NCBI GenBank assembly: GCA_002781365.1
Contig: PETN01000020.1
Location: forward strand, 62,001 to 126,000
Source: Sulfurimonas sp. CG01_land_8_20_14_3_00_36_23
GTDB taxonomy: Bacteria > Campylobacterota > Campylobacteria > Campylobacterales > Sulfurimonadaceae
Direction: 5' to 3'
Length of the DNA: 64,000 bases
Position numbers and translations under genes: made by a program. The notes beneath the pieces are model-generated. The model was not told the origin of the DNA. It saw only the letters and a program-made list of their open reading frames with translations, and searched no databases. Below, piece after piece: positions 3,503-58,106 of this stretch. Numbering within the stretch: the first letter of the stretch is position 1; every line of letters begins with the position of its first letter.

Positions 3503-3528
3503 TTTCCACATGCCGTAGCATGTGGAAA
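3503..3528. repeat. Inverted pair of dispersed motif: TTTCCACATGC-cgta-GCATGTGGAAA
   Basis: Read directly; 11-nt arms, 4-nt loop, just after purH stop. Confidence 0.9.
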
Positions 3529-9959: not shown

Positions 9960-9973
9960 TTTCCACATGCCAA
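9960..9973 (-). repeat. Dispersed motif, single intergenic copy (TTTCCACATGCCAA)
   Basis: Read directly. Confidence 0.9.
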
Positions 9974-10422: not shown

Positions 10423-11005
10423 ACCAAACATCAAAAAAATAGTTATGGGTAAGTTTAAAGGCAAAACTATTAAATTGCCATCAGGTAAGACAACGAGAAG
10501 CTCAAAAAACATCGTTTTAGAATCTTTTTTTAACACTGTTCAGTTTGAAATTATAGATTCAACATTTGTTGAGGTTTTTTCTGGAAGTGGTTCTATCGGA
10601 CTTGAAGCACTGAGTCGAGGTGCAAAAAAAGTCATCTTTATGGAACAAGACAGAGATGCTCTTAAAGTTTTAAAAGAGAATATCTCTGCAACTGACCCTA
10701 GCGCATGCGAAGTTTTTAGTGGTGACAGTTTTGATAACATCAAAGCCGTAGTAAAACAATTGCAAAAAAACAGTTCAATGGCATACTTTTATATAGACCC
10801 ACCTTTTAGCATAAGAGAAGGGATGGAAGATATTTACGAGAAGATGATAAACATGATAGCCTCTTTTCCTGTTGAAGTTGTAAAACTAATCATCATTGAA
10901 CATATGACAGGTCTGGAACTTCCTGAAATATTAGGTGAATATGAGAAGAAAAAATCTAAAAAGTTTGGAAATACGAGTCTAACCTATTTTCAGGTTGAAG
11001 AGTAG
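10412..11005 (+). CDS. rsmD: 16S rRNA (guanine966-N2)-methyltransferase, RsmD family
   Basis: 'FVEVFSGSGSIGLEALSRGAKKVIFMEQD' and 'YFYIDPPF' motifs. Confidence 0.9.
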   Translation: MKNRPNIKKIVMGKFKGKTIKLPSGKTTRSSKNIVLESFFNTVQFEIIDSTFVEVFSGSGSIGLEALSRGAKKVIFMEQDRDALKVLKENISATDPSACEVFSGDSFDNIKAVVKQLQKNSSMAYFYIDPPFSIREGMEDIYEKMINMIASFPVEVVKLIIIEHMTGLELPEILGEYEKKKSKKFGNTSLTYFQVEE

Positions 11006-20703: not shown

Positions 20704-21633
20704 CTAAGAACGTTTTCTTTTGACATTGGCATGTGGAATTAAAAATTCTAGATTTCCGAGCACTTTTTTTTCTATTTTTGCCTCTTCTATAAGCTCGAAA
20801 AGTCTTTTTTTACTTGGCTCATCAAAAAGGAGATTTATATCATCCATAGTAAGCGGTCGTTTATCTAAGGTGTTGAGTATCTCCTCTTTAGAGTACTCTG
20901 CATTATTCGGTTCCGCATGGACTCTAGAAGCTATATGGATAGGCAAAGAGTTATCAAACAGTAAAGATATTTCATGTAACTCTTTGTAACTTATACCCAT
21001 CACAGGATATGCAGGAGGTCTGTCTATCGTTCCTAAGTCAACTCGTGTACAATCAAGTGTCAAAAGTACTTCATTAAGCTTTTGTACCTCTTCTGGTGTG
21101 TCGTTGAGTCCATGTACAAAAAGTATCTCTATAAAAAGTTTGCCTTTATAGAGTTTAGAGAATTTTTGAACACTTTGTACAACATTTTCTATTTTTATAC
21201 TTGCATGTGGTCTATCTATCTTTTTAAAAATATCTCCACTTATAGCATCGAGGGAAAGTTTTACCTGATTTAGTTTGAGAAGGGTATTGAAGATTTTTTC
21301 ATCTACTAAAGTTGCACTGTTTGTAAGAATGAGGGTTTGTGTGTTTTTTTTGATTTTATCTATCTCATCTATGAGTTCACTCAGGTGAGGGTAGAGCGTT
21401 GGCTCACCATTGGCTGTAAGTGTGAGCACATCAATATTTGTATTTAAGTGCTTTTTTAACTCTTGGATAATCGCATCCACTTTGACAACTTCACTCTGAA
21501 TATCGACTGTGTGTGCAGGTGCAAGTTCACAATAAAGGCAGTCAAAGTTACATTGTTTTGTGGATGGAGAGAGATCAATCCCTAGCGAAGTGCCAAATCT
21601 ACGAGAATTTATAGGTCCGAATATTATATTCAT
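20704..21633 (-). CDS. Radical SAM protein
   Basis: 'CNFDCLYCELAPA' CxxxCxxC motif, 'LTANGEPTLYPHLSELID'. Confidence 0.85.
   Translation of the reverse strand: MNIIFGPINSRRFGTSLGIDLSPSTKQCNFDCLYCELAPAHTVDIQSEVVKVDAIIQELKKHLNTNIDVLTLTANGEPTLYPHLSELIDEIDKIKKNTQTLILTNSATLVDEKIFNTLLKLNQVKLSLDAISGDIFKKIDRPHASIKIENVVQSVQKFSKLYKGKLFIEILFVHGLNDTPEEVQKLNEVLLTLDCTRVDLGTIDRPPAYPVMGISYKELHEISLLFDNSLPIHIASRVHAEPNNAEYSKEEILNTLDKRPLTMDDINLLFDEPSKKRLFELIEEAKIEKKVLGNLEFLIPHANVKRKRS
20726..20738 (+). repeat. Dispersed motif TTGGCATGTGGAA inside the C-terminal coding end of the radical SAM gene (encodes IPHAN)
   Basis: Read directly. Confidence 0.9.
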
Positions 21634-21640
21634 TTAGAAG

Positions 21641-21691
21641 TTCCACATGCTAAGAAAGATAATTCCACATGCCAAAGATTGGCATGTGGAA
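21641..21691. repeat. Three dispersed motif copies; 21663-21691 is a perfect inverted pair TTCCACATGCCAA-aga-TTGGCATGTGGAA
   Basis: Read directly; intergenic between hemE and radical SAM gene. Confidence 0.95.
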
Positions 21692-21702
21692 ATGATTGAA
21701 GA

Positions 21703-22737
21703 TTAGATTTTTTTGCTTACTCTGTGACACTCATGTATAAAGTGTTTTGCATTTTCAACTGGTACGTCAGGAAGGATTCCATGCCCTAGATTGAAGATAT
21801 GGCGTTTACCTTCCATCGTCTTTTGAATCTCTTCTACAGACTCTGTTGTAGCCTCTTTAGAGTAGAGTCTACATGGTTCCATATTTCCTTGAAGAACATA
21901 TTTCTCTCCAAGTTTCTCTTTCGCAAGTGCCATAGGCGTAGACCAATCCACACCAAAGACATCAAAATTTCCATACACTTTATCTAAAAATGCAGGTATC
22001 CCTTTTGGAAACATGATAATAGGAATATGTGGATATTTTGCTTTAAGATAATCAGCAATTTCAACCATATATTTCCAAGAAAATTCATCATATTTTTCTG
22101 TTTCAATCGCCGCTGCCCATGAATCAAAGATTTGAACAACATCGATTCCAGCTTCAATCTGTTTTTCCATATAGAGTTTTACAACTTCTGTGACTTTGGC
22201 AAGAATTTTGTGTAAAAGAGCAGGGTTAGAGTACATCATCTTTTTACAGATATTGTACGTTTTTGTACCTTCCCCTTCTATCATATAGGTTGCGAGAGTC
22301 CATGGAGCACCCGTAAAACCTATAAGAGCTTTGTCATCTGCAAGTTGTTCTTTGATAAGTTTGATGGTATCGTAAACATAAGTAAGTTTACTCGCCGCTT
22401 CATCTCCGCCAAGAAGTCTCTCTATGTCAGCTTCACAAGTGATAGGGTCGCTAAACTTAGGACCTTCCCCTTTAACAAACGACAAATCCATTCCCATTTC
22501 ATCAGGGATAACTAAGATGTCACTAAAGAGTATAGCTGCATCTACACCAACAATATCTACTGGCTGAAGTGTTACAGCACAAGCCTTTTTAGGGTCATGA
22601 CAAAGGTTGAGGAAATTCCCAGCCTCCGCACGAACTGCCATATACTCTGGGAGATAACGACCCGCTTGTCTCATCATCCATACGGGAGTATATGGAGTCT
22701 CTTTGCCGAAGCAAGCATCTACAAATATTTTACTCAT
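21703..22737 (-). CDS. hemE: Uroporphyrinogen decarboxylase
   Basis: '[16 protein letters not shown]', '[16 protein letters not shown]', '[19 protein letters not shown]'. Confidence 0.97.
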
Positions 22738-34096: not shown

Positions 34097-35177
34097 ATTT
34101 CTTTTTCTTCTTGTCGTTGTTTGGCATGTGGAAATCTCAGCCTCAACCTACAAATGGAGTGCTACGGCGAACAAAACATCAGCAAAAGTGAATGAAGCAA
34201 TCTACTTAAAGTATGTTTGCGAATTTAGTGACCCAAGTGAACTCTACACAATAGAGTTCAATCCTAAGCGAGAGAGTGATGACTATAGCTTGAGACTTTT
34301 AAAAGAGAGTGAGCAGATAGTGGGGAACAAAAGGGTCAATAGCTATGAATTTGTTGCCTTTGCAAAGAGAAGCACGTCCCTTCATTTTGACTTTAATGTA
34401 ACGATGAAAGAGACAACACAAGAGTCGATTGACTCAACTATTTTAGGCAGAGACAATGCACAAGAGGCGCAGTTTACAAGCACAACACAACAACTAAAAA
34501 CTCTGGTTGTTGATGTTAGCAAAGTGGAGTCAGAGTTAGTTGGAACCTTTACTATGGAGATTCAAAAAGAGAAGCCAACTGTAAATGCGTATGAACCTTT
34601 CCACATGCAGATAACTATAAACGGTGTTGGAAATTTTCAAGCTTTAAAGCCATTTGATTTTCAGATAGAGGGCGTAAAAGTTTTTTCTCAGAAAGTGATA
34701 GAAAACCTTGAACTAAGCAAAGATGGTTATAGCGGGAGTTGGAGTCAAAAGTTTGCTTTTGTAAGCGAGAAAGAGTTTACAATTCCTAAAGTAACAATAC
34801 CCTATTTTAACATTGAGCAAAATATTCTTAAAGAGTTAGAGGCGAATGCAATAAATGTAAGCGTAAAAAAGGCTTTTACAAAAGAGGAGCTTTTAGACAA
34901 AGAAGAAGAGACTCAAGAGGATTTTTCAACATATATCTACTTTGCACTCACTTTTTTAGCAGGTGTTCTTGTTGGAAAAATGAAACTAAGAAAAAGAGCA
35001 GTTCCACATGCCAAAGATCTACTCTTTCAACAGAAGGTTCAAAATGCAAAATCAGTAGATGAACTTCTTATACTTTTGGCACTTGAGGATTCTAAAGCGT
35101 ATAGTGCACTTATATCGCAGGTGGAGAAAAAAGAACTCTCGCTTAGGGAGATTAAAAGCAAGATTTTAAAAATATAA
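34077..35177 (+). CDS. BatD-like exported protein (copy 1)
   Basis: Signal peptide, 'FHMQITINGVGNFQALKPFDFQIEGVKVF', C-terminal TM 'YFALTFLAGVLVG'. Confidence 0.8.
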   Translation: MKKNLGRFLFLLVVVWHVEISASTYKWSATANKTSAKVNEAIYLKYVCEFSDPSELYTIEFNPKRESDDYSLRLLKESEQIVGNKRVNSYEFVAFAKRSTSLHFDFNVTMKETTQESIDSTILGRDNAQEAQFTSTTQQLKTLVVDVSKVESELVGTFTMEIQKEKPTVNAYEPFHMQITINGVGNFQALKPFDFQIEGVKVFSQKVIENLELSKDGYSGSWSQKFAFVSEKEFTIPKVTIPYFNIEQNILKELEANAINVSVKKAFTKEELLDKEEETQEDFSTYIYFALTFLAGVLVGKMKLRKRAVPHAKDLLFQQKVQNAKSVDELLILLALEDSKAYSALISQVEKKELSLREIKSKILKI

Positions 35178-37319: not shown

Positions 37320-37350
37320 TTTGGCATGTGGAATCCATTTCCACATGCCA
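37320..37350. repeat. Inverted pair of motif: TTTGGCATGTGGAA-tcca-TTTCCACATGCCA
   Basis: Read directly; intergenic between LPP20 lipoprotein and MoxR genes. Confidence 0.95.
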
Positions 37351-37417
37351 GTTATTTACGAAATATTTACCCCCATTTTGTTATAATCTTCCAACATTAA
37401 AATAAGGTCCTCCATTT

Positions 37418-53593: not shown

Positions 53594-53607
53594 TTTCCAC
53601 ATGCCAA
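53594..53607 (-). repeat. Dispersed motif, single intergenic copy
   Basis: TTTCCACATGCCAA between amt and plsY. Confidence 0.9.
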
Positions 53608-56189: not shown

Positions 56190-56203
56190 TTTCCACATGC
56201 CAA
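56190..56203 (-). repeat. Dispersed motif, single intergenic copy
   Basis: TTTCCACATGCCAA upstream of nadA. Confidence 0.9.
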
Positions 56204-58073: not shown

Positions 58074-58106
58074 TTTCCACATGCCAAACAATTTCCACAT
58101 GCCAAA
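58074..58106 (-). repeat. Direct tandem pair of motif, TTTCCACATGCCAAA twice with 18-nt period
   Basis: Read directly; fills the short nadC-flhB gap. Confidence 0.95.

Follow-up and report, generated by a model that had tools for sequence, protein, structure and literature searches.

Specificity for DNA of a species' own kind, conferred by a short genomic word, was stated in a 2025 paper to be known only from the families Neisseriaceae and Pasteurellaceae (PMC12616744), and why uptake sequences evolve has thus been argued from two cases. In the Neisseriaceae, the DUS are short, abundant and present on both strands, form inverted pairs near gene ends, are enriched in permissive regions and missing from recently acquired or diversifying genes, and take distinct forms in related species (PMC3630211, PMC2397512), as is also the case for the Sulfurimonas word analysed here. 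Inverted pairs in Neisseria have been described as terminators, while transformation requires no more than one copy (PMC2397512); the explanation of uptake sequences as terminators has been called contentious (PMC2346458). The USS of the Pasteurellaceae likewise share with the Sulfurimonas word a ~9-base core, a preference for AT-rich flanks, many intragenic copies and a frame bias (PMC2346458). In their sequence, both known systems differ from this word and belong to another phylum. All DUS dialects have a CTG core (PMC3630211), whereas GGCATGTGGA is unrelated and without CTG, and its longer consensus TTGGCATGTGGAA contains no CTG on either strand; the USS, AAGTGCGGT and ACAAGCGGT (PMC12616744), are unlike it, and their GCGG core (PMC12616744) is missing from the consensus. 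The word thus resembles DUS and USS in the sequence features tested and, lacking the core of each, belongs to neither family. In the openly licensed literature we found no uptake sequence reported for Campylobacterota, Sulfurimonas or hydrothermal vents; a report elsewhere is possible. Campylobacter and Helicobacter, from the same phylum as Sulfurimonas, undergo ComEC- and DprA-based transformation; these genera are generally described as telling DNA apart by its methylation or through restriction, and are not known to rely on an abundant word. The Sulfurimonas word was not found in the other Campylobacterota sampled (150 genomes of the class).

The window, i.e. the whole 64,000-nucleotide stretch of Sulfurimonas DNA that was analysed, holds 20 copies of the word with at most one mismatch, compared to 0.12 expected from shuffles [Table 1]. 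At 21663-21691, in the gap between hemE and the same-strand radical-SAM gene, the sequence reads TTCCACATGCCAA-AGA-TTGGCATGTGGAA, a perfect inverted pair located 11 nt beyond the hemE stop codon. A perfect 13-bp stem with a 3-nt loop at the hemE 3' end had been described in an earlier note on this DNA, and both its sequence and its coordinates are as claimed. The third copy that the note placed 9 nt away is indeed at that position, but it carries one mismatch (TTAGCATGTGGAA) of which the note made no mention. The hemE product matches proteins of Sulfurimonas and related Campylobacterota, with identity of up to 93%.

Table 1. Genes and copies of the word in the window.
Feature	Position	Strand	Evidence and remarks
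hemE, uroporphyrinogen decarboxylase (URO-D)	21703..22737	-	Pfam PF01208, E = 2e-118; motif cluster just past stop
Motif arm, exact TTGGCATGTGGAA	21663..21675	-	Sequence match in window
Motif arm, exact TTGGCATGTGGAA	21679..21691	+	Sequence match; AGA is the 3-nt loop between the arms
Third motif copy TTAGCATGTGGAA, one mismatch	21641..21653	-	9 nt from pair; 7 nt before radical-SAM start codon
Gene for radical-SAM protein, next after hemE on its strand	20704..21633	-	Pfam PF04055; further motif copy near 3' end
Exact copy inside 3' end of radical-SAM gene, read IPHAN	20726..20738	+	Sequence match and ortholog alignments
Overlapping inverted pair, just beyond gene end	3504..3527		Sequence match
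Inverted pair, arms in opposite order, 5-nt loop, past gene end	37321..37351		Sequence match
Two exact tandem copies, 5 nt apart, intergenic	58075..58105	-	Sequence match
Single exact copy	9961..9973	-	Sequence match
Single exact copy	34121..34133	+	Sequence match
Single exact copy	35002..35014	-	Sequence match
Single exact copy	53595..53607	-	Sequence match
Single exact copy	56191..56203	-	Sequence match

Across the genome (2.43 Mb in 102 contigs), the exact 13-mer was found 534 times and the reversed word, used as a control, not at all; the most over-represented 9-mers of the genome are GGCATGTGG and GCATGTGGA. With its weaker flanks the motif reads (t)TTGGCATGTGGAA(a), conservation fading 2-3 bases outside TTGGCATGTGGAA and being absent beyond ~15 positions. 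The 534 copies are split 257 forward to 277 reverse, and coding copies 111 to 108 relative to the orientation of their genes, with no bias. Chi and HIP1 are other abundant short chromosomal words, and a short, abundant and species-limited chromosomal word such as this one could be the site of a chromosome-handling protein, be it Chi-like, bound by a nucleoid or segregation protein, or a target of modification. We consider this quite unlikely. Chi is orientation-biased and this word is not, either by strand or by gene, which led us to reject a Chi-like site, with the reservation that leading and lagging strands could not be resolved in 102 contigs. Thirteen base pairs are, in addition, long for Chi or a methylation site; HIP1-type words are palindromes, whereas this word is non-palindromic and occurs as inverted pairs where genes end; and the close spacing of such pairs there is not something that a chance-neutral binding site would account for.

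Placement was scored in 742 kb of the 2.43 Mb, sampled as stretches, using our own open-frame picks as gene calls and no annotation. The core GCATGTGGA has 295 copies in this sample, a density (~0.4 per kb) below that of the best-known Neisseria cases. About three quarters of the copies are inside genes and most are single; per kb, intergenic DNA carries approximately four times as many as coding DNA (1.39 vs 0.32). Intergenic density is 4.25 per kb in convergent gaps, 1.36 in co-directional and 0.34 in divergent ones, and the distance to a 3' end is below 40 nt in 55 of 71 cases, compared to 5 of 49 for 5' ends. Coding copies prefer two frames, read xPHAK and (L)ACG, as they do in other motif-rich genomes. 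Deserts of the motif correspond either to very conserved genes, which, from reading the sequences and not from a database search, we take to be rpoB, rpoC, tuf and ATP synthase, or to a 29% GC polysaccharide-type cluster. A motif-free stretch of 29% GC on contig C8 of this genome (L210:1736-18119), with polysaccharide-type genes also named by reading, is probably a surface cluster that was acquired horizontally or is diversifying.

The earlier note had likened the inverted pair at hemE to the arrangement of DUS and USS, and held that this would be refuted if inverted pairs were in no excess over random placement. In the 742-kb sample, 18 inverted neighbours were found within 30 nt of each other, 17 of them intergenic, whereas 500 random placements preserving the coding/intergenic split yielded 3.6 on average and at most 10, none of them reaching 18. 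The refuting result was thus not met, and the likeness is supported in kind by this excess and by the other in-silico hallmarks, uptake itself being inferred. Direct neighbours numbered 12, several of which derive from a single tandem array at the start of contig C13. This array, at the contig end, is made of six 17-bp units GTTTGGCATGTGGAAAT (L050:3-100 of G000), and the assembly may have stopped there because of it.

The inverted pairs sit 1-27 nt beyond stop codons and seldom occur in divergent regions, and the 13-bp hemE stem is strong (folding energy -21.3 kcal/mol, z = -4.7). This would be expected of RNA hairpins whose main role is to stop transcription or to shield the 3' ends of mRNAs, in which case single copies would be remnants or half-sites. 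Comparison of hemE ends between species offers this explanation further support. While hemE mostly abuts or overlaps the next gene in motif-free species, motif-rich species have a spacer carrying motif copies. The pair was found in L056, L064 and L130, with its arms in opposite order in L086 and partly decayed in L074 and L076; L061 and L067, in which the exact word is missing from the hemE end, have hairpins whose sequence is similar yet not the same. A hairpin spacer is thus shared by several species while its sequence and arm order vary. In L083, moreover, matched C-to-G and G-to-C changes in both arms set the hairpin TTTGCACATGCCAA..TTGGCATGTGCAAA apart from those of its relatives, as if the stem itself were maintained. 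A primary role as RNA hairpins nevertheless appears unlikely. The criterion for an intrinsic terminator, a G+C-rich hairpin followed by a U-tract, was not met, the 22 tails examined averaging 4.5 T in 12 nt, little above composition. The remark of the earlier note that there is no good T tract at the hemE site has to be qualified, since the 12 nt that follow the stem on the hemE strand (TTATCTTTCTTA) include 8 T and are the richest of the 22 tails, the only one to stand out; most other pairs have no T-tract. Four unrelated stems, furthermore, would serve equally well, yet one sequence is used. The general lack of U-tracts and the predominance of single, intragenic copies led us to reject termination as the main role, and the hairpins are therefore best regarded as a secondary feature.

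For 41 coding sites, the orthologs of relatives were aligned, and 294 of the 298 alignments were gap-free at the site; the word was common to 27 of these ortholog alignments, the others differing by 1-10 bases. Because the alignments are gap-free, coding copies were made by substitution and not by insertion, a result that does not extend to intergenic copies. At 20726..20738, within the radical-SAM gene, the word is present in five motif-rich relatives and missing by substitution elsewhere, all alignments compared being gap-free. Self-insertion of a mobile or REP-like repeat might account for hundreds of copies and hairpin pairs, for the single tandem array, six 17-bp units long, at the start of a contig, and for a hemE spacer being present in some species only. 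It is, however, barely credible as an explanation of a word that shows no conservation beyond ~15 positions, and the gap-free orthologs led us to reject it for the coding copies.

When genomes of the family (151) and of the class (150) were surveyed, high copy numbers of the word proved confined to certain members of the genus Sulfurimonas, and there are sister species without it. Motif-free relatives were searched for over-used words, which were then counted in 120 whole genomes of the genus. The word of this window, counted as GGCATGTGGA, occurs 905 times in this genome and up to 1307 times in the genus, and otherwise mostly 0-10 times. A second word, CTGCGTGAG, has 272-487 copies in seven genomes and otherwise mostly fewer than 15 (rich: L171, L197 and L198 (G001); genomes G176, G039, G165, G173, G147 and G031), located for the most part in genes, in a frame read LRE, and without inverted pairs. 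CTGCGTTTR reaches 1453 copies per genome, as opposed to ~20-40 otherwise (rich: L178 (G145), L126, L084, L098 and L072; genomes G140, G168, G192, G215 and G071), and the palindrome YTACATGTAR reaches 551 sites, as opposed to ~5-30 (rich: L059, L123, L070, L170, L195, L196 (G141) and L165 (G053)). HIP1 is an abundant palindrome that resembles this last word. With cut-offs of 100 for GGCATGTGGA, CTGCGTGAG and YTACATGTAR and of 150 for CTGCGTTTR, ~60 of the 120 genomes qualified as rich in a single word and no genome qualified for two, as read from the count tables. Some further repeats were noticed in passing. L178 has three close CTGCGTTTR copies in one intergenic region (10744-10796); the 15 forward and 90 reverse CTGCGTTTR copies of the whole G001 genome suggest a repeat array; a TCCTATATCC-type repeat with ~12 copies in 14 kb of L129 is probably a local array; and other palindromic words are prominent in single loci of L112 and L066 (GCAGCGCGCT... 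and TCACTTAAGT...).

The over-use of different words by sister species is suggestive of tags that come in several dialects. Neisserial dialects are variants of one to a few bases, whereas the four Sulfurimonas words differ more from each other, and only the word of this window displays the full placement pattern. In the small stretches available, CTGCGTGAG, CTGCGTTTR and YTACATGTAR showed no clear inverted-pair or 3'-end bias, an apparent count of inverted pairs in G141 being an artefact of the near-palindromic pattern; these three are less secure as uptake words. On a DNA tree of the single gene hemE, word labels cluster more than expected by chance yet are patchy, the word of this window alone requiring at least five changes. 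A broader proposition is that the genus as a whole possesses a third, independently evolved uptake system, whose dialects, at least four in number and one of them palindromic, exclude each other and change so frequently that they serve as moving sexual barriers among environmental species. This proposition is attractive but tentative, and we give it somewhat less than even odds.

For the word of this window itself, we favor with a probability of about 0.78 the interpretation that it serves this Sulfurimonas lineage as a DNA uptake sequence, separate from those of the two known families. Alongside the over-representation, species restriction, placement, origin by substitution and inverted-pair excess observed above, genes for the competence machinery were found: ComEC is encoded in 25 of 26 Sulfurimonas genomes, DprA in all 18 of 18 and pilin-type proteins in all 26 of 26. 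ComEC and DprA also occur in word-free species and widely in bacteria, so that their presence indicates no more than the possibility of such machinery. What is inferred is the preference in uptake, the receptor and the drive. The motif would be bound at the surface by a receptor, probably resembling a type IV pilin, that allows the competence machinery (the ComEC channel and DprA) to import DNA of the species' own kind. Copies created by point mutation would become enriched through the preferential uptake and recombination of the fragments that bear them, and would be retained wherever their cost is smallest, namely shortly after the ends of genes and, within genes under weaker constraint, in the preferred frames. 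The region behind hemE may be one such low-cost place, at which an inverted pair and a third copy built up, with the hairpin at the end of the hemE mRNA as a by-product or a secondary use. The receptor of the Neisseriaceae, ComP, is known; none was found in Sulfurimonas. Two pilins adjoin priA (6 motif copies), ~7 kb from comEC (3 motif copies), but this pair is present whatever the word of the species and shows no difference in identity by word type, and thus does not in itself identify the receptor. A second pilin set belongs to a GspG-type secretion cluster. Comparison of the pilins, which did not include a ComP-specific search, yielded none linked to the word and no candidate. Against the interpretation as an uptake sequence stand the lack of any uptake experiment, the missing receptor, a copy density below that of the best-known Neisseria cases and the patchiness of the word on the hemE tree.

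If confirmed, the word would represent a third, independent case of uptake specificity, in another phylum. If the interpretation is true, the many species with sharply different words and their motif-free sisters would allow a comparative test of ideas on drive, barriers and genome stability; the receptor could then be sought by association, and genetic work in environmental sulfur oxidisers would gain a practical tag.
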